Positions 14,196-63,031 of a stretch of 64,000 nt of DNA are shown in pieces; position 1 is the first letter of the stretch; each line of letters begins with the position of its first letter. This DNA comes from Candidatus Heimdallarchaeota archaeon. Its GTDB lineage: Archaea; Asgardarchaeota; Heimdallarchaeia; JABLTI01. The stretch lies in NCBI GenBank assembly GCA_018238155.1, contig JABCTZ010000017.1, forward strand, positions 62,001 through 126,000. Reading direction: 5' to 3'. The position numbers and the translations under genes were made by a program. The notes under the pieces were generated by a model that worked only from the letters and a program-made list of their open reading frames with translations, searched no databases and was not told the origin of the DNA.

Positions 14196-16000
14196 ATGAC
14201 AAGAATAATTATTAAAAAAAACATCTTAGCTATACTTGTTATAGTGTGTATAATGGCTGCTCCGTTTTATGGAGAAAAAAAAAAACGGTCGGAAAAAATC
14301 CCGAACCATACTTTTCAATAAGTATTCTCTGTCCTAATACCAACCCATCGAGAAACCAATGGGCATCATTGATGGTTGAACAATTACCAAAGATAGGTAT
14401 TGCCGTGGATATCTTTGATCATACCGGATGGGCGCAAATCTCCCCCCGCGTTTGGGGGCATCCTGGTCCATATCCAATACCAACATACGCCGAGGGAGGA
14501 TACGATATTTTCTTTATAAGTTGGTCCTGGGGTCTCGATTGGGATCCAACAGGTCTTTATGACAGTCCAGCAATTACACCAGATGGCAATAACTTTTATC
14601 AATACGATAATCCAGCAATGGACAACGCAATTGGTAATTACATTTCTTCATTCGTTCTAGCAGATAGAATTGAATGGGCTGAAGAAATCCAAGCAATTCT
14701 CTATGAAGACTTGCCAGAAATTTCCCTTATTTACCCATTATCAGTCTATCCTCACGTTGAAGGTGTTGCAGACTTTAGTGGATTGTTATGGGCTTCAACT
14801 CAATATCCATTCTTCGAAATGACTATTACAGGTGAAACTGATTTTCATTACGCCATTCCTGCAGACTTTGTAGATTTCCATCCTCATACTTATGCCTCCA
14901 ATTATGATGCTCAATGGTTGCGACAAATTTACAATGGTCTAATTCAAAGAGACCCATCAATAAACAATGGGTATGCTCCTTGGTTAGCTGAATCCTTCAG
15001 TAGTCCAGATGGTATAATTTATACTGTTGTCATCAAAGACGATGCTTGCTGGGCTGATGGCACTGATTTAACCTCTGTAGATGTTGAATACAACTATCAA
15101 TTAGCTGTTACTCAATCTTTAGGCGGAAATAGATACTCAACCAACATCAAGTACTGGGACAATAACTCCATTGAAATCATAAATAACAAAGAATTCACCA
15201 TTACATTCAAACAAGCATATGTTTTCCAAGATGGAAATTTAGCTCTGGACTTGATTCCAGAACATATTTGGGGTGCAATTGCTCCCGCGAATCACGAAGC
15301 AACATCAATTAACTGGACAAAAAATCACCCCGAAAAAATGTTCGGTGCTGGTCCTTACATGTTAGCTGATTATGATGCTACAAATCGTGTCATTCAATTA
15401 GAAGCAAATTCACATTTTACCGATTGGTATGGTGCAGAACCAAGCTTTGATAATATCTACTTCGAGTTCTATGGTAGTAAAGAAGGTGCATTGGCAGCTC
15501 TTGCTGCTGGTACTATAGACATGGTTGATGCTCAATACAGTCCTCAATTAGATGAGCTTGACATTGCAGGCGCTACTTATACATTAGTTGAAAATCCTGG
15601 TGTGCATGAAATCGCAGTTAATATGAAACATCCTTATCTTGGCACAGGTGAACTATGCCCAATTGCTGGTACAGAATCAGCAAAATTCATTAGAAAAGCT
15701 ATCTCTCATATGGTTCCAAGAGAAATCATCGTAGAAGAAATTCTCAATGGTCTTGGCACACCTGGAACAACTGGTTGTCCAAATGTTGCCATTGGTTACG
15801 ACATCACTCTAGTACCTTATGAATATAGTATTAACCTTGCTTTGCAATATATGGCTCAAGCTGGTTTTGGCGTCACTCTTCCATCAACTACTGCACTAAC
15901 AAGCCCGTCATCTATTGTAGGGATTGCTATACCAATAATTCTAAGTATCTTTGCGCTAATTGGTGGTACAATATTTGTCATAAATAAAAGAAAGAGATAA
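14196..16000 (+). CDS. Peptide-type solute-binding protein, copy 1: halves in swapped order, frameshifted after the signal peptide
   Basis: A family 5 (OppA/DppA-like) extracytoplasmic binding protein. The signal peptide (KNILAILVIVCIMAAPFYG) is read from ATG 14196. The frame then meets an A11 run (14275-14285) and is wrong by one base; one extra A would restore it to the rest of the gene, which is open to 16000. The mature part starts with what is normally the C-terminal lobe: PYFSISILCPNTNPSRNQWA, IGIAVDIFDHTGW, DWDPTGLYDS and NFYQYDNPAMDNAI. The usual N-terminal part follows later (YNGLIQRDPS, PWLAESFSSPDG, CWADGTDLTSVDVEYNYQLA), and then FIRKAISHMVPREIIVEEIL and ALQYMAQAGFG. It ends in a membrane helix plus NKRKR. 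No permease genes lie beside it. Confidence 0.85.
14357..14475 (+). repeat. 119-bp tract identical to one in the next binding-protein gene
   Basis: By eye this segment of copy 1 is identical, base for base, to 16459-16577 in copy 2, whereas the flanks differ at many synonymous sites. It is locally GC-richer than its surroundings and contains CCCCCGCGTTTGGGGG. This looks like recent gene conversion. Confidence 0.8.
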
Positions 16001-16302
16001 TCTTCTTTTATTTCTTCCATTTTTTATCACTCTTTCAATTTGTACAAAGAACTGTTTTTTATTGAATTAATATTAGAATTACAATAATTGCTTTTCTCGA
16101 AGAGATGTATTCAATTCTTGCACTTTAAACCAAAAGATATGAGTGTATTTCATATAAATTAAGAGAAAAAAATGATTATATTCTTTTACATCAATACATG
16201 CTTTTTTTGTCTAGGGGTAAATAGGTTATCTTTTTATTATCAAAAGTACTACCATAATTTAGGAAAAAATCATTTCTTTAATTTTTGAGAGAGATTAAAA
16301 AT
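16001..16302. other. Intergenic region between binding-protein copies 1 and 2
   Basis: About 300 bp of AT-rich sequence. I see no gene, RNA or convincing hairpin, only T-rich stretches after the copy 1 stop codon that may end its transcript. Confidence 0.5.
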
Positions 16303-18120
16303 ATGAGAAAAATTACACAAAAAAACATTCTTGTTATGCTTGTTTTAGCAAGTTTTATAATTGCTCCATTATATGGCGAAAAAAAAATAACTGGAGAAAA
16401 TCCTGGACCATATTTTTCAATAAGTCTTCTCTGTCCAAATACAAGCCCAGCGAGAAATCAATGGGCATCATTGATGGTTGAACAATTACCAAAGATAGGT
16501 ATTGCCGTGGATATCTTTGATCATACCGGATGGGCGCAAATCTCCCCCCGCGTTTGGGGGCATCCTGGTCCATATCCCATTCCAACGTACGCCGAGGGAG
16601 GTTATGATATTCTTTTCGTAGGTTGGAGTGGTGGTCTTGATTGGGATCCAACAGGACTTTATGACAGTCCATCCATTACTCCAAATGGTGATAACTTCTA
16701 TCAATACAACAATCCAGTAATGGATAACGCAATTGGCAATTACACCTCTTCATTCGTTCTAGCAGATAGAATCGAATGGCTTGAAGAAATCCAAGCAATT
16801 CTCTATGAAGATAACCCAAGTATACCAATAATTTATCCTTTGGAAGTTTATCCGCACAATGAAAACGTCACTAATTTCTCAGGATTATTGTGGTCTGAAG
16901 AATATCATCCATTTTATAAAATGTTTATCCCAGGTGAGACCGAATTTCATTACGCTACACCTGCACACTTTGAAGATTTCCATCCCTATATTTTTGAGTC
17001 TGTTTATGATGCTCAATGGTTGCGACAAATCTATAATGGTTTACTTCAAAGAGACTCATCAATCAACAATGGATATTCTCCATGGCTTTGTGAATCTTTC
17101 AGTAGTTCTGACGGTTTAACCTACAATGTTGTCATCAAAACTGATGCTTGTTGGGCTGATGGCACAGATTTAACCACAGATGACATTATTTACAACTATC
17201 AATTAGCTGTTACTCAATCTTTAGCCGGAACCAGCTACTCATCCAACATAAAGTATTGGGATAACAGTTCCATTACTAAAACAAACGACAAGGAATTCTC
17301 CATTACATTCAAACAAGCATATGTTTTCCAAGACGGCAATTTAGCGCTCGATTTGATTCCAGAACACATTTGGGGTGCAATTGCTCCCGCAGATCATGAA
17401 GCAGCTTCTATTAACTGGACCAACAATCACCCTGAAAAAATGTTCGGTGCTGGTCCATATATGCTTGATGACTATAATGCTACAAATGGTGTTATCCAAT
17501 TAGAAGCTAATCCACACTTTACTGATTGGCATGGAGCTGCTCCAAGTTTTGATGACATCTACTTCGAATATAAAAGCTCTAAAGAAGCTGCATTAGCAGC
17601 ACTTGCTGCTGGTACTATAGACATGGTTGATGCTCAATTCAGCCCTCAATTAAATGAACTTAATCTCCCAGGTGTATCATACACTCTTGTCGATGACCCT
17701 GGTGTACAAGAGATGGTTATTAATATGGAACATCCCTATCTTGGCACAGGAGATCTCTGTCCAAACGCAGGCAAACAATCTGCAAGGTATATTAGAAAAG
17801 CGATAAGCCATATCCTTCCGAGGGAAATGATCTGTAATGAAATCCTTAACGGTTTAGGTCGTCCAGGTGTTACGGCATGTCCCAGTGTAGCAATAGGTTT
17901 TGATGATTCATTAGACTATTATGAATATTCTATTGAAACAGCACTTCAATACATGGCTCTAGCTGGTTTTGATGCACCTGTTCCAACTCCTACTCCAACC
18001 CCTACTCCTACCACATCAACAAATTCCTCTTTCAATATTGGAATTGCTGTGCCAGTAATCATAGGTATCTTTGCACTAATTGGAAGTTCAATATTGATAG
18101 TAAATAAAAGAAGAAAATAA
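16303..18120 (+). CDS. Peptide-type solute-binding protein, copy 2: halves in swapped order, membrane-anchored
   Basis: An intact relative of copy 1. The signal peptide is KNILVMLVLASFIIAPLYG, read from ATG 16303 (an in-frame TTG at 16285 is less likely). The order is again C-terminal lobe first (PYFSISLLCPNTSPARNQWA; DWDPTGLYDS; FYQYNNPVMDNAIGNYTSSF; RIEWLEEIQAILYED), then the N-terminal lobe (YNGLLQRDSSINNGYSPWLC; CWADGTDLTTDDIIYNYQLA; GAGPYMLDDYN), then YIRKAISHILPREMICNEIL and ALQYMALAGF. A Thr/Pro stalk (TPTPTPTPTTST) leads to the C-terminal membrane helix and KRRK tail. It would capture peptides or similar solutes at the cell surface. About 606 aa. Confidence 0.9.
   Translation: MRKITQKNILVMLVLASFIIAPLYGEKKITGENPGPYFSISLLCPNTSPARNQWASLMVEQLPKIGIAVDIFDHTGWAQISPRVWGHPGPYPIPTYAEGGYDILFVGWSGGLDWDPTGLYDSPSITPNGDNFYQYNNPVMDNAIGNYTSSFVLADRIEWLEEIQAILYEDNPSIPIIYPLEVYPHNENVTNFSGLLWSEEYHPFYKMFIPGETEFHYATPAHFEDFHPYIFESVYDAQWLRQIYNGLLQRDSSINNGYSPWLCESFSSSDGLTYNVVIKTDACWADGTDLTTDDIIYNYQLAVTQSLAGTSYSSNIKYWDNSSITKTNDKEFSITFKQAYVFQDGNLALDLIPEHIWGAIAPADHEAASINWTNNHPEKMFGAGPYMLDDYNATNGVIQLEANPHFTDWHGAAPSFDDIYFEYKSSKEAALAALAAGTIDMVDAQFSPQLNELNLPGVSYTLVDDPGVQEMVINMEHPYLGTGDLCPNAGKQSARYIRKAISHILPREMICNEILNGLGRPGVTACPSVAIGFDDSLDYYEYSIETALQYMALAGFDAPVPTPTPTPTPTTSTNSSFNIGIAVPVIIGIFALIGSSILIVNKRRK
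16459..16577 (+). repeat. 119-bp tract identical to one in the preceding binding-protein gene
   Basis: Partner of 14357-14475. Copy 3 (18250-20052) is clearly diverged in the same region, apart from a short acgCCGAGGGAGG core shared by all three. Confidence 0.8.
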
Positions 18121-18249
18121 TCTTCTTTTCTCATTCTTTTTTTCACTGATCTTTTAGCTTGAAAGATGCTCTATCTTCAATTTATTGAAGAAAAACAAAT
18201 AAACAAAGTGATTAATACACTATATCAGAAATCACAGGTATCGGAAAAA

Positions 18250-20052
18250 ATGAATGCAAAATACTTCGGGAGAAAAACAATTCATTTATTTCTAATAGTT
18301 GGTCTTTTGTTTGTTCCATATCAACAACTTCTCAATATTGCTGAAGGTAATCCTGAACCATTTTTCAGTATTAGCATTTTGGCTCCGAATTCTGGAACTG
18401 CAAGACTTCAATGGCATACACTTATGTTTGAACAATTACCAAAGATAGGTATTGCAGTAGATACATTCGACCACACTGGTTGGGCACAAATTAGTCCAAG
18501 AACTTGGGGCTATCCTGGACCATATCCAATACCGACGTACGCCGAGGGAGGTTACGATATTCTATTCTTAGGTTGGGGCGGGGGTTTCGATTGGGATCCA
18601 GCCGGTTTATATGACAGTCCATCCATTATTCCAAACGGTGATAACTTCTATCAATATAACAATCCAGCAATGGATGCTGCCATTACCAGTTACACATCTT
18701 CCTTTACTCTAACTGATAGGAATAAATATGCCGGTGAAATTCAATCCTTGCTCTATGAAGATTTACCACAAATAAGCATTATTTATTCATTAGGCTGCTA
18801 TTCTCATGATCCCAATATTACTAATTTTGAAGCATTACTTTGGGCAGGTGCCTATTATCCGTTTCACAATCTATCAATACCTGGTCAAACAAGCTTCACA
18901 TATGCCACTCCCGCTGACTTTGAAGATTTCCACCCTTTTATATACGAATCCGTTTATGATGCTCAATGGTTGTTGCAAATCTACAATGGATTACTTCAAA
19001 GAGATCCAATATTGGATAATAGCTATGGACCTTGGCTTGCTGAATCGGTTAGTAGCACTGACGGTGTAACCTACGATGTAGTCATCAAAGATGACGCTTG
19101 TTGGGCAGATGGAGTAGATCTAACCACTGATGATATTATTTACAACTATCAATTAGCTGTTAATCCATCATTAAATGGAATCAGCTACTCAACCAACATA
19201 AAGTACTGGGATAATGATTCTATCACTAAGATAAATGACAAAGAATTTTCAATTACTTTCAAACAATCGTATGTTTTTCAAGATAACAATTTAGCGCTCA
19301 ATTTACTTCCAGAACACATTTGGAGTGCAATTGCCCCTGCAGATCACAAAGCAACATCTATTAACTGGACCAATAATTACCCCGAAAAGATGTTTGGTGC
19401 TGGTCCTTACATGTTAGCTGATTATGATGCTACAAATCGTGTCATTCACTTGACAGCCAACCCCCAATTTGCTGACTGGTTTGGTGCTGCCCCGAGTTTC
19501 GATGATATCTACTTTGAGTTCTTTAATACTAAAGTTGGTGCATTAGCTGCCCTTTCTGCAGAAACCATAGATATGGTTGATTCTCAATTTTCTCCGCAAA
19601 TAGCTGAATTAGCTATTCCAAATGTTAGTTACACTTTGGTTGATGATCCTGGAATACAAGAGATAGCTATCAACATGGAACATCCCTATCTTGGCACCGG
19701 AATGCTCTGTCCAATAGCTGGGACAGAGTCAGCTAAACACATTCGAAAAGCTATTAGTTATATGGTGCCCAGACAAATAATCGTCAACGAAATTCTCAAT
19801 GGTCTTGGCGTTCCTGCAACAACAGGTTGTCCCCGAGTTGCCGTTGGGTATAATCATTCTTTGATTCCATACGAATATGATATTGAGCTTGCCAAGTATC
19901 ATATGAACCAAGCTGGTTTCGAAATCTCCTATACACTTCCTGCAAGCCCCAATAGCTATGTTATTTCTTTATCCTTCAGTTTTATGGTTATTATGTTTGG
20001 GCTGCTTGGTGTGGGTCTTTGGATTACTCGAAAAAATTCATTTAAGAAATAG
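18250..20052 (+). CDS. Peptide-type solute-binding protein, copy 3: halves in swapped order, membrane-anchored
   Basis: Same design as copies 1 and 2, but more diverged. The start is taken as ATG 18250 (MNAKYFGRKTIHLFLIVGLL), which gives a normal signal peptide; a frame to 18166 exists without one. The C-terminal-lobe part comes first (PFFSISILAPNSGTARLQWH; GFDWDPAGLYDS; NFYQYNNPAMDAAI; LPQISIIYSLG), followed by the N-terminal-lobe part (YNGLLQRDPI; GPWLAESVSSTDGVTYDVVI; CWADGVDLTTDDIIYNYQLA; GAGPYMLADYDATN), then HIRKAISYMVPRQIIVNEIL. It ends in a membrane helix and TRKNSFKK. The three genes form a rightward array with no transporter permease or ATPase in reach, so they may serve a transporter encoded elsewhere. 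Confidence 0.9.
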   Translation: MNAKYFGRKTIHLFLIVGLLFVPYQQLLNIAEGNPEPFFSISILAPNSGTARLQWHTLMFEQLPKIGIAVDTFDHTGWAQISPRTWGYPGPYPIPTYAEGGYDILFLGWGGGFDWDPAGLYDSPSIIPNGDNFYQYNNPAMDAAITSYTSSFTLTDRNKYAGEIQSLLYEDLPQISIIYSLGCYSHDPNITNFEALLWAGAYYPFHNLSIPGQTSFTYATPADFEDFHPFIYESVYDAQWLLQIYNGLLQRDPILDNSYGPWLAESVSSTDGVTYDVVIKDDACWADGVDLTTDDIIYNYQLAVNPSLNGISYSTNIKYWDNDSITKINDKEFSITFKQSYVFQDNNLALNLLPEHIWSAIAPADHKATSINWTNNYPEKMFGAGPYMLADYDATNRVIHLTANPQFADWFGAAPSFDDIYFEFFNTKVGALAALSAETIDMVDSQFSPQIAELAIPNVSYTLVDDPGIQEIAINMEHPYLGTGMLCPIAGTESAKHIRKAISYMVPRQIIVNEILNGLGVPATTGCPRVAVGYNHSLIPYEYDIELAKYHMNQAGFEISYTLPASPNSYVISLSFSFMVIMFGLLGVGLWITRKNSFKK

Positions 20053-20103: not shown

Positions 20104-20724
20104 TCATTTCGCCATTTCTTGTATTATTTTCTCTATTTCTTCAATACTATAATCATCCATTTTTTTGACTTTAGTGGAAATTTCAGTTATAATCTTCAAA
20201 CTGGAATTTAGGTTTATCATTCTTTGTTGTAATTGTTCTTTTCTTTTTTCATAATGTTTCTCTAAAGCTTGAAGGAATTTCTTTGCCTCTTCTTTTGTTT
20301 TGAATTTCTTCAATTGCTCTATCAAACTCGGTCTCCTGCTATGCCGAATACGTATTAATGGTCTTCGTGTTGGAGGAATAATATCACTTAGGAACGCAAT
20401 TTGATTGGTCCAATCATCTCTTAATTCTCGTAATTTTTCCTTCCCTTGTTCAGTTATTTTGTATAGTTTTTGCGCACGACCCTTGACAATTGCCTCTTCA
20501 GAAGTAATATATCCTTTTTCTTCCATTCCCTTCAATGTTCTATAGACATTCGTTTGTTTTACTTTGTAGTTCTTTTGAAGATCATATCCGGTAATCCCTT
20601 CAGTCTCTTCTGAAATAGTCCATAAGAACACTAATTGACTCATTTCTTTTACCATGCCAGGACCAAAAGGCATAGGTGGTCGAAAATGGTGTTGTTCGTA
20701 AGAACTGTGCCTTTGCTTATTCAT
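20104..20724 (-). CDS. PadR-family transcriptional regulator
   Basis: A winged-helix DNA-binding domain of the PadR type: ITGYDLQKNYKVKQTNVYRT followed by LKGMEEKGYITSEE, with RAQKLYKITEQGKEKLREL as the wing and following helix (about residues 35-100). The C-terminal 70 residues form a coiled-coil dimerisation region (KTKEEAKKFLQALEKHYEKR; EQLQQRMINL) ending in YSIEEIEKIIQEM. The next protein upstream on the same strand shares only this C-terminal region. A 23-bp imperfect palindrome lies 40 bp before the start codon, so autoregulation is likely. It is convergent with the binding-protein cluster. Confidence 0.9.
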   Translation of the reverse strand: MNKQRHSSYEQHHFRPPMPFGPGMVKEMSQLVFLWTISEETEGITGYDLQKNYKVKQTNVYRTLKGMEEKGYITSEEAIVKGRAQKLYKITEQGKEKLRELRDDWTNQIAFLSDIIPPTRRPLIRIRHSRRPSLIEQLKKFKTKEEAKKFLQALEKHYEKRKEQLQQRMINLNSSLKIITEISTKVKKMDDYSIEEIEKIIQEMAK

Positions 20725-21469: not shown

Positions 21470-21898
21470 TTATTGACTTTTATAAAGCTCATCCACTTTT
21501 TTTGCTACTTCTTGAGCAATTATTTCAGCTAATTTCATACCATCATCTCCAATATCCTGTGGAGTGTTAGGAATAAGTTCTGGATGTTGTTTCATAATTT
21601 CCTTAACGTAGATTGTTGCTGTTGCAGGAGCGCTATATCGTTCAACAGCTACTTTTCCACATTCTTCATCACATCCTTCTATTGTGATGGTTTTGTGTTT
21701 CTTAGCAAATTCTCTCTCGGATCCACCACCCTTATGATTAATATCACCCGCCATAAATAATGGTTGACAAATAATTGTGGTAGTGAATGGTCGCAATTTT
21801 TCTACTACAATTCTTGTTGCTACTCGAGTTAATGTTCCTTCTACTAATTTTTCACCACTACAAGCGATTATACCTATTTTTGGTTTTACTGAAATCAT
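21470..21898 (-). CDS. DGC-domain putative zinc-binding protein (third DGC copy in the operon)
   Basis: The DGC domain is a family of small proteins with four conserved cysteines thought to bind zinc. All four are visible here: IACSG near the N-terminus, IICQPL in the middle, and EGCDEEC (EGC in place of the signature DGC, with C-x3-C). The tail (DDGMKLAEIIAQEVAKKVDE) is helical. The 142 aa are soluble. It is the last gene of the operon, 12 bp after the second DGC gene, with GAAGGTG before its ATG. The function is unknown; see the operon description at the HdrA-like gene. Confidence 0.8.
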   Translation of the reverse strand: MISVKPKIGIIACSGEKLVEGTLTRVATRIVVEKLRPFTTTIICQPLFMAGDINHKGGGSEREFAKKHKTITIEGCDEECGKVAVERYSAPATATIYVKEIMKQHPELIPNTPQDIGDDGMKLAEIIAQEVAKKVDELYKSQ

Positions 21899-21909
21899 CT
21901 TTTCACCTT

Positions 21910-22314
21910 CTATTCTATATATAAATCATCAACTTTTTCTGCAATATTCTCTGCTAGTTTTCTTGAGAGTACTTTTGCATTTTCACCTAAAATCAAAATA
22001 TCTTTTTCAGGTTTCAAGTCTCGATGTTTTTTGACTATGTCTGTAGACATAAAAACCGCATCAGGTTCTCTAACTGCTACTCGAACATCGGTATATGCGC
22101 ATTTTGCAGTACAACCATCGATGGTGATAATCTTATTTGCTTTCAGAGCATCAATGACTTCCTTCTTTCCTTTAACAATAAGTGGTAGACATTCTATAGC
22201 AGCTTTTTCTGGAGCTAACTCATTAACAACAATATAGGCTGCTTCTCTACACATACCACCAAATGCTTTTCCTATTCCACTACAAGGGATGATGTATACT
22301 TTTTCTTCTGACAT
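21910..22314 (-). CDS. DGC-domain putative zinc-binding protein (second DGC copy)
   Basis: The four DGC cysteines are present: IPCSGIGKAFGG, IECLPLIV, and IDGCTAKCA with the signature DGC and a C-x3-C spacing. The start is taken as ATG 22314 (MSEEKVYIIPC), after AGGTAGG and just beyond the stop codon of the preceding gene; an upstream frame start at 22344 would overlap it. About 134 aa, soluble, with a helical end (VLSRKLAENIAEKVDDLY). It lies between two other DGC genes, so the three may form a complex or pass on the same ligand. Confidence 0.82.
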   Translation of the reverse strand: MSEEKVYIIPCSGIGKAFGGMCREAAYIVVNELAPEKAAIECLPLIVKGKKEVIDALKANKIITIDGCTAKCAYTDVRVAVREPDAVFMSTDIVKKHRDLKPEKDILILGENAKVLSRKLAENIAEKVDDLYIE

Positions 22315-22327
22315 TTTACTACCTACC

Positions 22328-23191
22328 TTAATTTTCTTCAACAATTTTACGTTTCATATATTCGAAGTATGTTGGACCATCCATTAGGAGTTCCTTATCT
22401 TCTTCAAGAGCTGCTAACTCAATTTCAGCAACCCATCCTTGCTCGTAAGCATCGCCATTCAAAAATTCTGGACTGTTTTCTAGTTCATTATTAACATCGA
22501 TAATATTTCCACTAACTGGTGATATTAATTGGAGTAATGCCTTAACTGATTCAAAATCTGCAACTTCATCAAATTGCTCGATTTTTGTTTCAATCGTTGG
22601 CAAATCAACAAAAATAACATCTCCCGCTTTGTTTTGAAAATAGTCTGTAATACCAACTAATGCTGTTTTTCCTTCTATTTTTGCCCAACAATCATTCTCG
22701 TTAAAATAGTATCCTTCTTTTGGCACACGGAAATGATATTTATCTACGGTAGTTTCTAAATATTCTACACCTACGAATTTTCTCTCTTCCTTTTTCTCAG
22801 TAATTGTGCTTAATTCAGTAATGAATTTTGTAATAATTTCTGCTGCAATTTTCTCTACAAGTTTCTCTCCATCGGTATTGAGTACTAGGTTTTTACCAGG
22901 GCGCAGTTGAAATTTTTTGGTCATATCCGGGATAAAAACTCGTTTGCTGATTTTCTGTCCTTTCGTCTCAGCTAATTTTGCTGCACAACGTGTTGAGCAC
23001 CCATCTATTACAATGATTTTAGCATTCTTTAGAATCTCGTCATATTTTTTTTCATTAGTATTATATAGAACCGGGCAGATTAAATCAATAGAAGAATCCA
23101 TCTCGATTACTTTGATAGATACTTCTCGAGTAATAACTCCAAGTGCTTTATCTAGTCCATTACAAGGTAGTAAACAGATTTTTTTAGCCAT
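22328..23191 (-). CDS. Fusion of a DGC-domain protein with a lipoyl (GcvH-like) domain
   Basis: Residues 1-130 form a DGC domain: LPCNGLDKALG, ICPVLYN, VIDGCSTRCA. Residues about 150-258 are a glycine-cleavage H-protein-like lipoyl domain: FRVPKEGYYFNENDCWAKIE, ALVGITDYFQNKAGDVIFVD, and FESVKALLQLISPVSGNI, followed by NDAYEQGW-like DAYEQGWVAEIE. The lipoyl-attachment lysine is K217 in ESVKA. The gene is the middle member of the operon, and no glycine cleavage P or T protein is present in the window, so a role other than glycine cleavage is likely. I infer that the swinging lipoyl arm carries electrons or a thiol-bound ligand between the DGC site and the iron-sulfur partners. Confidence 0.85.
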   Translation of the reverse strand: MAKKICLLPCNGLDKALGVITREVSIKVIEMDSSIDLICPVLYNTNEKKYDEILKNAKIIVIDGCSTRCAAKLAETKGQKISKRVFIPDMTKKFQLRPGKNLVLNTDGEKLVEKIAAEIITKFITELSTITEKKEERKFVGVEYLETTVDKYHFRVPKEGYYFNENDCWAKIEGKTALVGITDYFQNKAGDVIFVDLPTIETKIEQFDEVADFESVKALLQLISPVSGNIIDVNNELENSPEFLNGDAYEQGWVAEIELAALEEDKELLMDGPTYFEYMKRKIVEEN

Positions 23192-55360: not shown

Positions 55361-55466
55361 AGGCCTGTAGCGCAGTTAGGATAGCGCACTTGCCTTCTAA
55401 TCAGTTCACTTGGTGATCTGAGAAGTAAGTAAGGGGTCGAGGGTTCAAATCCCTCCAGGCCTGCCA
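55361..55466 (+). tRNA. tRNA-Arg (anticodon UCU) with a 28-nt intron
   Basis: The acceptor stem AGGCCTG pairs with CAGGCCT before discriminator G73 and an encoded CCA. The D arm is GCGC-AGTTAGGATA-GCGC, and the T arm GAGGG-TTCAAAT-CCCTC is intact. The anticodon loop is CTTCTAA with anticodon TCT (55396-55398), and the anticodon stem is CTTGC/GTAAG with one G-T pair. The intron (55400-55427) sits at the canonical 37/38 site. The precursor forms a textbook bulge-helix-bulge: TAA bulge (55398-55400), CTTC/GAAG 4-bp helix, TAA bulge (55426-55428), flanked by TCAG/CTGA inside the intron. A1-U72 is uncommon for archaeal tRNA-Arg. Confidence 0.95.
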
Positions 55467-61093: not shown

Positions 61094-61957
61094 ATGGTAG
61101 TAAAAAAAAATAGTGAAGTATCAGAATCAATTTCTATACCGATCAAAATAGCTAATGAACTTGTTTATAACCCAGAAATCATTCAAGATGAATTATTTGA
61201 AGAAAACGAAGTAAAAATGGACATTGTGAATTTATCGCATTGGTTTGGTGATAATCAAGTTTTATCAGGTATATCTATGCCCATCTTCACGAACAAAGTT
61301 ACAGCTATTATTGGTCCTTCTGGTTGTGGAAAATCAACCTTTCTTCGCGATTTGAATCGTATGAATGATTTGGTATCTATCTCTAGAATGTCAGGTGATA
61401 TTCTATTAGGGAATAAAAATATCTATGATAATGATGTAGACGTAGTTCAATTGAGAAAACGAATTGGTATGGTCTTTCAGAAACCAAATCCTTTTCCAAT
61501 GCCAATAGAAAATAACATTGCTTACGGTCCTTATATCCATGGGATAGAACCTGACAGCATTCCTGAAATTGTGAAAAGTTGTTTGCAAAAAGCAGTTCTG
61601 TGGGATGAAGTTAAAGATCGATTAAAAGATAATGCTTTTTCTCTCTCTGGTGGACAGCAACAGAGATTATGTATTGCACGAACCTTATCCGTTCAACCTG
61701 AAGTAATCTTATTTGATGAACCTTGTAGTTCTCTTGATCCTCATGCTACCGCTAAGATTGAGGACTTGATTACAAAATTGAAACAAGATTATACTGTAGT
61801 AATTGTTACACATAATATGCAACAAGCAGCTCGAGTGTCTGATTATACTGCATTCTTCAATTTAGGTGATCTTGTAGAATTTAATAGTACTAAAACAATA
61901 TTCAAATCTCCCGAGCGAAAAATGACAGAGGAGTATATTTCCGGGCGATTTGGTTAA
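61094..61957 (+). CDS. pstB: Phosphate ABC transporter ATP-binding protein PstB, first copy
   Basis: The ATPase subunit for high-affinity phosphate import. Walker A is [20 protein letters not shown]. The PstB-typical [20 protein letters not shown], the signature [16 protein letters not shown], Walker [21 protein letters not shown] and the switch His in [18 protein letters not shown] are intact. The end reads [12 protein letters not shown] 45-residue N-terminal extension precedes the ABC domain, as in the next copy. The pstS, pstC and pstA genes are not in the window. A second, similar PstB gene follows after 168 bp. Confidence 0.95.
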
Positions 61958-62125
61958 CTCATTTTTATTGGTGGTTTGCATATTGAATGAAAATAATAAA
62001 CAGCTTGATGAAACATTATGCACTAAAGAATTAATGAGCAAATTTCTAAATAATACGGGATTGTTTTACTATATTAATCGAATACATTTGAATAAATATT
62101 TTTATAGCTATGAACCATCGAATTA

Positions 62126-63031
62126 GTGGTGACAATATTTTTGCCAGCAAATACTCGCGATTCACTTTCCAAAGCTAAGCCTCTCAAAGACAGGAGCGAA
62201 GAAGCAAAGATTGCTATAAAAATAGCTGCTGATTTAACTGATCCACCCGAAATTGTCCGAGAAGATTTACTAAAAACACATGTATTGAAGATGGAGTCAG
62301 TTGAGCTTTCACACTGGTATGGCGATAACAGAGTTCTTTCTGGTATTTCTATGCCTATTTTCAACAACAGAGTTACAGCTATCATTGGTCCTTCCGGTTG
62401 TGGGAAATCGACTTTCCTTCGGGATTTAAACAGGATGAATGATTTAGTTAAGATTGCACGAATTGCTGGCAAAATTTTGCTTGATGGACAAGATATCTAT
62501 GCAGAACATATTGATGTTGTTCAACTGAGAAAACGAATTGGTATGGTCTTTCAGAAACCAAATCCTTTTCCTATGTCAATAGAAAACAATATTGCATACG
62601 GTCCATATGTTCATGGAGTGAAGCATGAGGGTTTAGATGAAATTGTTGAAAGTAGCTTGAAAAAAGCTGCCTTATGGGAGGAGGTCAATCAACGACTAAA
62701 AGATTCTGCATTATCATTATCAGGAGGACAACAACAGCGGTTGTGTATTGCTCGAGCCTTATCTGTTCAACCTGAGGTTCTCTTAATGGATGAACCGTGT
62801 AGCTCTCTTGACCCTCATGCTACCGCTAAGATTGAGGATTTAATTACAAAATTAAAGCAAGATTATACTGTAGTGATCGTTACCCATAATATGCAGCAAG
62901 CTGCTCGAGTGTCTGATTACACTGCATTTTTCAATATAGGGGAGTTAATTGAATTTGATAGAACAAAGAAAATCTTTGCTAATCCTGAGAGGAAAATGAC
63001 TGAAGAATATATTTCCGGGCGATTTGGATAG
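62126..63031 (+). CDS. pstB: Phosphate ABC transporter ATP-binding protein PstB, second copy
   Basis: A close paralogue of the preceding gene. The Walker A block [20 protein letters not shown] and the end EEYISGRFG are the same, as are [60 protein letters not shown] and [18 protein letters not shown]. The segments coding for the last 60 residues are nearly identical in DNA, which suggests recent duplication or conversion. It starts with GTG 62126 and carries a longer N-terminal extension (about 55 residues before the ABC domain). phoU follows after 48 bp, so the cluster is pstB-pstB-phoU. Confidence 0.95.

Follow-up and report, generated by a model that had tools for sequence, protein, structure and literature searches.

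A tandem trio of circularly permuted family 5 solute-binding proteins in an Asgard archaeon

By sequence, three tandem genes of a Heimdallarchaeota contig encode circular permutants of the family 5 solute-binding protein (SBP) domain, SBP_bac_5. The genes lie in a 64,000-nt stretch of DNA, the window, as co-oriented ORFs on the plus strand (14246-16000, 16285-18120 and 18166-20052; copies 1, 2 and 3), and their products are 66-75% identical to one another. All three share the layout signal peptide – C-terminal part – N-terminal part – membrane helix. We consider it likely (probability about 0.85) that they are secreted, C-terminally anchored, circularly permuted OppA/DppA-type SBPs that serve a Dpp-type importer and arose by duplication, fusion and the creation of new ends. 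Their parts, with the doubled profile described below, are as follows.

14196..14284, + strand: copy 1 signal-peptide segment (MTRIIIKKNILAILVIVCIMAAPFYGEKK...), in another frame than the body; matches the copy 2 signal peptide
14300..14833, + strand: copy 1 canonical C-terminal segment, placed first; doubled-profile match from position 349, at protein residue 18; includes a Pfam piece (G000:C13:76297-76560, profile 287-358)
14834..15877, + strand: copy 1 canonical N-terminal segment, placed second, ending ...ALQYMAQAGF; Pfam SBP_bac_5 2-281 at protein 243-544
15929..15997, + strand: copy 1 C-terminal membrane helix, then basic residues; from the sequence and the alignment of the copies
16303..16401, + strand: copy 2 signal peptide and short spacer (from MRKITQKNILVM...); AlphaFold helix 2-30, low-confidence 32-35
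16402..16935, + strand: copy 2 canonical C-terminal segment, residues 40-217; matches AppA 356-499 and, with E as low as 3.6e-40, the C-terminal part of normal-order relatives
16936..17979, + strand: copy 2 canonical N-terminal segment, residues 218-565; Pfam 2-284 at 264-568, AppA 49-344
17980..18117, + strand: copy 2 Pro/Thr linker and C-terminal membrane helix (residues 589-610); from predicted secondary structure and sequence
18250..18348, + strand: copy 3 signal peptide, its start likely an internal Met (MNAKYFGRK...); from sequence and alignment
18352..18885, + strand: copy 3 canonical C-terminal segment, placed first; doubled-profile match 349-874 at residues 62-589
18886..19929, + strand: copy 3 canonical N-terminal segment, placed second; Pfam 3-281 at 288-588
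19972..20049, + strand: copy 3 C-terminal membrane helix and basic tail; from sequence and alignment

As assembled, the signal-peptide ATG of copy 1 (14196) and the body of the protein are in different frames, so that the open frame begins at GTG 14246. Translation of both frames showed that they meet only via an 11-A run near 14275; the break may be a real slip or arise from the assembly.

Segment order and predicted fold

SBP_bac_5 (PF00496) was detected in all three window proteins with 163-166 bits, against a curated cut-off of 32.4, in two stretches each. The best stretch, profile positions 2-284 of 368, comes late in the chain (264-568 in copy 2), while the profile end (287-359) is found upstream of it in the same frame (G000:C13:78399-78665, followed by 79074-79988). 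The domain pieces are thus out of order, and none of the three proteins contains a single colinear domain running from profile start to profile end. The same exchange is seen against the solved structure of AppA (1xoc), in which residues 49-344 match copy 2 residues 246-562 and residues 356-499 match copy 2 residues 40-195. In blastp comparisons, two swapped blocks were also found against the normal-order relatives L095, L096, L097, L098, L117, L136 and L139, with E values of 1e-24 to 1e-55 and ~29-48% identity to ordinary relatives of the same class; for L095, residues 218-563 correspond to 41-391 (E 4e-51) and residues 43-204 to 408-567 (E 2e-38). The swapped order that the preliminary description had read in all three copies therefore reappears in the Pfam, AppA and normal-order comparisons alike. 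Its wording in terms of lobes needs one adjustment, since the cut does not separate the two lobes. It falls between AppA residues 344 and 356, in the loop that follows the '...YMAxAGF' helix; in the OppA nomenclature this point would lie inside domain III.

To read the order of each protein in one step, we rotated the members to the ordinary order and doubled their alignment (N-C-N-C; 525 positions per circle). Any circular order matches such a profile as one stretch, and the start of the match tells the cut. The window proteins give one unbroken match from 349 to 873/874, which is the full circle of 525 positions, and their opening 170 residues correspond to the C-terminal segment of the family, not to unrelated sequence. 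Both parts are homologous to the parent, their order is exchanged, the old ends are joined and one internal point is opened; junction linker and loop are also visible in a comparison of two operon proteins, L230 and L231, taken up below. By these sequence comparisons the window proteins are circular permutants of SBP_bac_5, as had been proposed. A rotation scan against profiles of normal-order proteins only was not decisive, as HMMER splits permuted and some normal proteins and the best single-domain score wanders; we relied instead on the unbroken doubled-profile match and the domain coordinates.

AlphaFold, given one window protein with 72 permuted relatives, returned a confident monomer despite the new order (pLDDT 92.9, pTM 0.85, 521 of 611 residues at or above 90), although the model could be helped by memory of the family. 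The best PDB matches in Foldseek were AppA, NikZ, MppA and OppA (E 1e-16 to 1e-14), most of them over ~370 columns, roughly the length of the second block and as would be expected of a sequential aligner confined to the larger block. The bilobed Cluster C fold is thus predicted to be intact in the window proteins. In such a fold the new ends would lie in a surface loop of domain III, and a short linker would bridge the former C- and N-termini. The model of L197, a protein of another cut type (200-725), was weak (pLDDT 63.4, 11 sequences).

Cut sites, age and end modules

In the 4.08-Mb source genome, a many-contig and incomplete assembly covered by profile search and by reading in stretches, all 12 family 5 binding proteins found are permuted in the same order. 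Six of them are only ~17-20% identical to the window proteins and yet share it. The order is therefore old by sequence and predates the main paralogues; its placement before the duplication of the trio was correct but understated. Named relatives come from MAGs labelled Heimdallarchaeota or 'Asgard group'.

A doubled-profile search of Asgard genomes recovered the order of the window proteins across Asgard families, well beyond the window locus, and identified four cut sites besides the ordinary order, each with a near-full circle:

cut 350-875 (that of the window): families f1 and f4, some f2 and f3, other Asgard families
cut 280-803: L100 and L101
cut 391-930: L102
cut 200-725: 11 proteins of f28 and f11
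ordinary order: f5, f6, most of f3, and the f19 proteins examined

Typed frames numbered 102 for the window type, 31 for the ordinary order, 12 for the fourth type (including the fusion L067), and 2 and 1 for the others. By sequence, permutation thus recurs at several cut sites. An apparent fifth class ('start 403-420') was discarded: L035, L065, L070 and L073 are frames cut at contig ends, and L188 and L190 are weak matches to the window's cut. L067, once set apart as a separate cut type, is in fact a C-N-C-N fusion. Cuts at 369-375 in f2, f28 and f10 were merged with the window's cut (350), since the first strand is weakly aligned and the ends lie in the same loop.

Trees were built after every protein had been folded back into the ordinary frame. 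A single clade for all window-order proteins was rejected (lnL 477 lower, p-AU 1.4e-5). In the Heimdall group, an ordinary-order clade (99/97) is nested inside permuted ones (93/88 and 91/92); in an operon clade (100/100), ordinary forms sit among permuted ones and the outgroups are permuted. AU tests did not reject one permuted clade in the close Heimdall set (p 0.195) or for the four operon proteins (p 0.345), so that reversals to the ordinary order in two groups, though the simplest reading, are likely rather than proven. The four cut sites require four separate re-cuttings in any case. A wider proposal, which we put forward tentatively and at slightly less than even odds, is that family 5 SBPs of Asgard archaea are topologically labile, having been re-cut at no fewer than four sites and having reverted at least twice, inside conserved operons, to the ordinary order. 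Repeated duplication, fusion and truncation would be the mechanism, and selection would act on the identity of the lobe that is both membrane-tethered and presented to the importer.

The end modules did not move with the domain. Among Asgard proteins, a C-terminal membrane helix is present in 79 of 90 complete window-type members, 22 of 29 complete ordinary ones and 12/12 other permutants, and the combination of N-terminal hydrophobic segment and C-terminal helix occurs in the majority of members in all topologies. The suggestion that the anchor replaces the usual free end does not hold, because normal-order relatives end in the same way; the permutation does not account for the anchor. Retention of both ends in every topology indicates that the domain rotated between two fixed end modules. 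With signal peptide and anchor kept at the physical ends and the domain between them rotated, the tethered part would differ: presumably the ordinary form is tethered via domain I and the window's form via domain III, if the AppA cuts are placed on the published OppA domain limits. The moved tether may confer an advantage. C-terminally anchored archaeal binding proteins of ordinary order start with a signal peptide and end with a Thr/Pro-rich linker and membrane helix; the trio has the same end modules and differs in segment order.

Operon context, function and route

The switch can be seen in two operons of family f28 with the same gene order, SBP-DppB-DppC-DppF-DppD, one headed by an ordinary SBP (L230, genome G211) and the other by a permuted one (L231, G196). 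L230 residues 64-413 align with L231 residues 204-554 at 65.5% identity, and residues 414-616 with 32-229 at 46.3%; the C-terminal membrane segments of the two SBPs align with each other, and the four downstream genes are 51-72% identical. By sequence, such syntenic swaps are present; the order of the SBP changed and its gene context did not, which argues strongly that permuted forms do the same job as ordinary ones. Further ordinary operon cases are L243 and L244, and further permuted ones L235, L248 and L249. Permuted relatives are encoded with DppB, DppC, DppD and DppF at L231, L235, L240, L237 and L242. Like the ordinary forms, each window protein probably closes around an extracellular ligand, an oligopeptide or a similar compound, with a peptide suggested by the family, and would pass it on to a Dpp-type importer (DppBCDF).

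At the trio's own locus, neither permease nor Dpp-type ATPase genes adjoin the three copies. For its 12 binding proteins the source genome holds a single complete DppB/C pair plus a DppC-like permease that stands alone; its other permeases are, by inspection, of the phosphate and iron/thiamine type. These observations would suit a role outside transport, with the fold reused in receptors at the cell surface, sensors or adhesion proteins. Such a role is distinctly unlikely for the trio, however, as a paralogue 70% identical to copy 2 (L021) lies near DppD/F and DppB/C genes, permuted SBPs are the first genes of complete dpp operons in other genomes, and it is common for one importer to serve several binding proteins. 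About a dozen binding proteins of the source genome probably share one importer, and the trio may act in transport, although with one complete permease pair for 12 proteins some copies could be sensors or scavengers. That the swapped order itself is an artefact, with tandem ordinary genes mis-assembled or out of phase so that the C-terminal part of one gene and the N-terminal part of the next mimic a single gene, is barely conceivable. The genes are indeed tandem, the assembly is fragmented and incomplete, and copy 1 is frameshifted, but each frame carries its own signal peptide and its own membrane helix, the same order occurs in single-copy operons of many genomes, including complete plasmids, and permuted operons match normal-order ones exactly, gene by gene. 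Domain-swapped oligomers, in which the proteins could fold only by exchanging segments between neighbouring copies on the membrane, would fit the tandem, co-oriented copies and the short linker joining the old ends; the confident monomer model and the single-copy permuted genes in operons elsewhere make them very unlikely.

How the permuted order arose is best accounted for by tandem duplication and in-frame fusion, followed by the creation of new ends. Permutation by duplication is expected to leave duplicated or fused intermediates (PMC3320104). Fused doubles occur in the same phylum: L226 has two ordinary copies in a 989-aa frame that reaches the contig end, L224 has two in 3619 aa, and L067 is the C-N-C-N fusion described above; tandem arrays also recur. 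These are what the duplication route predicts. The fused forms prove that intermediates exist, not that they were the route taken, which we infer. Fission and fusion, in which a protein is split and its halves are rejoined in the opposite order, is the usual competing model for such proteins (PMC3320104). In its favour, short frames with only the N or only the C part do occur, and several permuted proteins stand in tandem arrays, where rejoining is possible. The half-length frames examined, however, either sit at the end of a contig or locus or belong to a broken frame, fused double copies exist, and rejoined halves would not by themselves ensure that both end modules are kept in every topology. 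We therefore regard fission and fusion as unlikely and favour duplication with fusion.

Precedents and relatives beyond Asgard archaea

The trio resembles the SBP_bac_5 proteins OppA, DppA and AppA in sequence family, predicted fold, secretion and the DppB/C/D/F operons of its relatives, and differs from them by the circularly permuted segments. Natural circular permutations are usually single, ancient and found between distant proteins. Family 5 offers several permutations, close operon pairs across the switch (66% in the larger block), fused doubles and probable reversals, a natural series that makes the route of circular permutation testable. The same series could be used to ask how much an importer that relies on a binding protein is affected by where that protein is tethered to the membrane.

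The nearest precedent is Tp0684 (TpMglB-2) of Treponema pallidum, a circularly permuted glucose-binding protein designated 'Type Ic / Cluster Bc' that is also found in other lineages (PMC4990184). Like the trio, it is a natural permutant of an ABC-importer binding protein; its ligand binding was measured, its function is retained, and tethering was noted by the authors as a possible reason (PMC4990184). TpMglB-2 is, however, a Type I / Cluster B sugar binder for which one permuted topology has been described, in contrast to the several cuts, repeated switches and syntenic operon pairs of family 5, and the Pfam and PDB matches of the window proteins are to family 5 only. Saposin/swaposin and permuted DNA methyltransferases are further cases with duplicated or fused intermediates (PMC3320104). 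They are unrelated families; here the domain rotates between a conserved signal peptide and a membrane helix.

A literature search, which was not exhaustive, found no publication on permuted family 5 or Asgard binding proteins, all 60 solved chains listed for the doubled profile were in ordinary order, and none of the solved chains shown for the junction spans it. The view that no family 5 protein of this form had been described is thus in line with the publications searched, while the form itself extends past the locus and past Asgard archaea. We searched plasmid records with a query spanning only the new junction. About 44 records match it in one unbroken piece, from alphaproteobacteria (Nitratireductor, Microvirga, Neorhizobium, Roseomonas, Ketogulonicigenium and Maritalea) and many haloarchaea, whereas ordinary relatives, for example in Phaeobacter and Ensifer, match only half of the query. 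The permuted order was confirmed in the five plasmid frames examined, and complete plasmids that carry it come from Ketogulonicigenium, Nitratireductor, Halarchaeum and Haladaptatus. Four annotated frames belong to SBP-permease-permease-ATPase operons and are labelled just 'ABC transporter substrate-binding protein'. Importer parts in Asgard archaea, haloarchaea and alphaproteobacteria are thus annotated as ordinary despite a different topology, with consequences for domain-based annotation, for alignments and trees, and for functional transfer based on structure. For three of the annotated plasmid proteins the full sequence was read, and none shows an obvious C-terminal membrane helix, indicating that anchor and segment order are separate features.

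Binding-protein array and its relatives

The signal peptide of copy 1, the first gene of the array, is out of frame with the remainder of the gene owing to an 11-A run (14273-14286), which reflects either slippage or a sequencing error. A gene for a PadR-like regulator lies immediately 3' of the array and is convergent with it.

20107-20724, -, PadR-like regulator, adjoining the array

Elsewhere in the same genome, three more permuted binding proteins are encoded in tandem; they share only ~18–19% identity with the window proteins.

L022:9743-15533, second trio

Some very long Asgard proteins (1076–3619 aa) carry a single or a double binding-protein domain at the N-terminus, beyond which extend long, unexplained C-terminal regions.

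L224:1571-12430, -, very long protein(s), N-terminal binding-protein domain(s)
L225:926-8704, -, likewise
L227:5238-11778, -, likewise

Phosphate uptake cluster

Two PstB-like ATPase genes are followed by PstS-, PstC-, PstA-, PhoU-, and Pit-like genes, assigned partly by reading. Judged from sequence, these genes form a cluster for phosphate uptake in which the ATPase is duplicated.

61094-63031, +, two PstB-like ATPases; cluster runs on into L261 (G000:C13:121001-135000), same genome

DGC-domain genes and tRNA

A fusion of DGC and glycine-cleavage H-protein domains forms an unusual cluster (21473-23191, -) with two more, stand-alone DGC-domain genes adjoining it.

22331-23191, -, DGC/H-protein fusion (Pfam PF08859 + PF01597)
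21473-21898, -, stand-alone DGC-domain gene
21913-22344, -, stand-alone DGC-domain gene

A tRNA found by Rfam, for which ARAGORN in bacterial mode made no call, probably carries an intron.

55361-55463, +, tRNA (103 bases)
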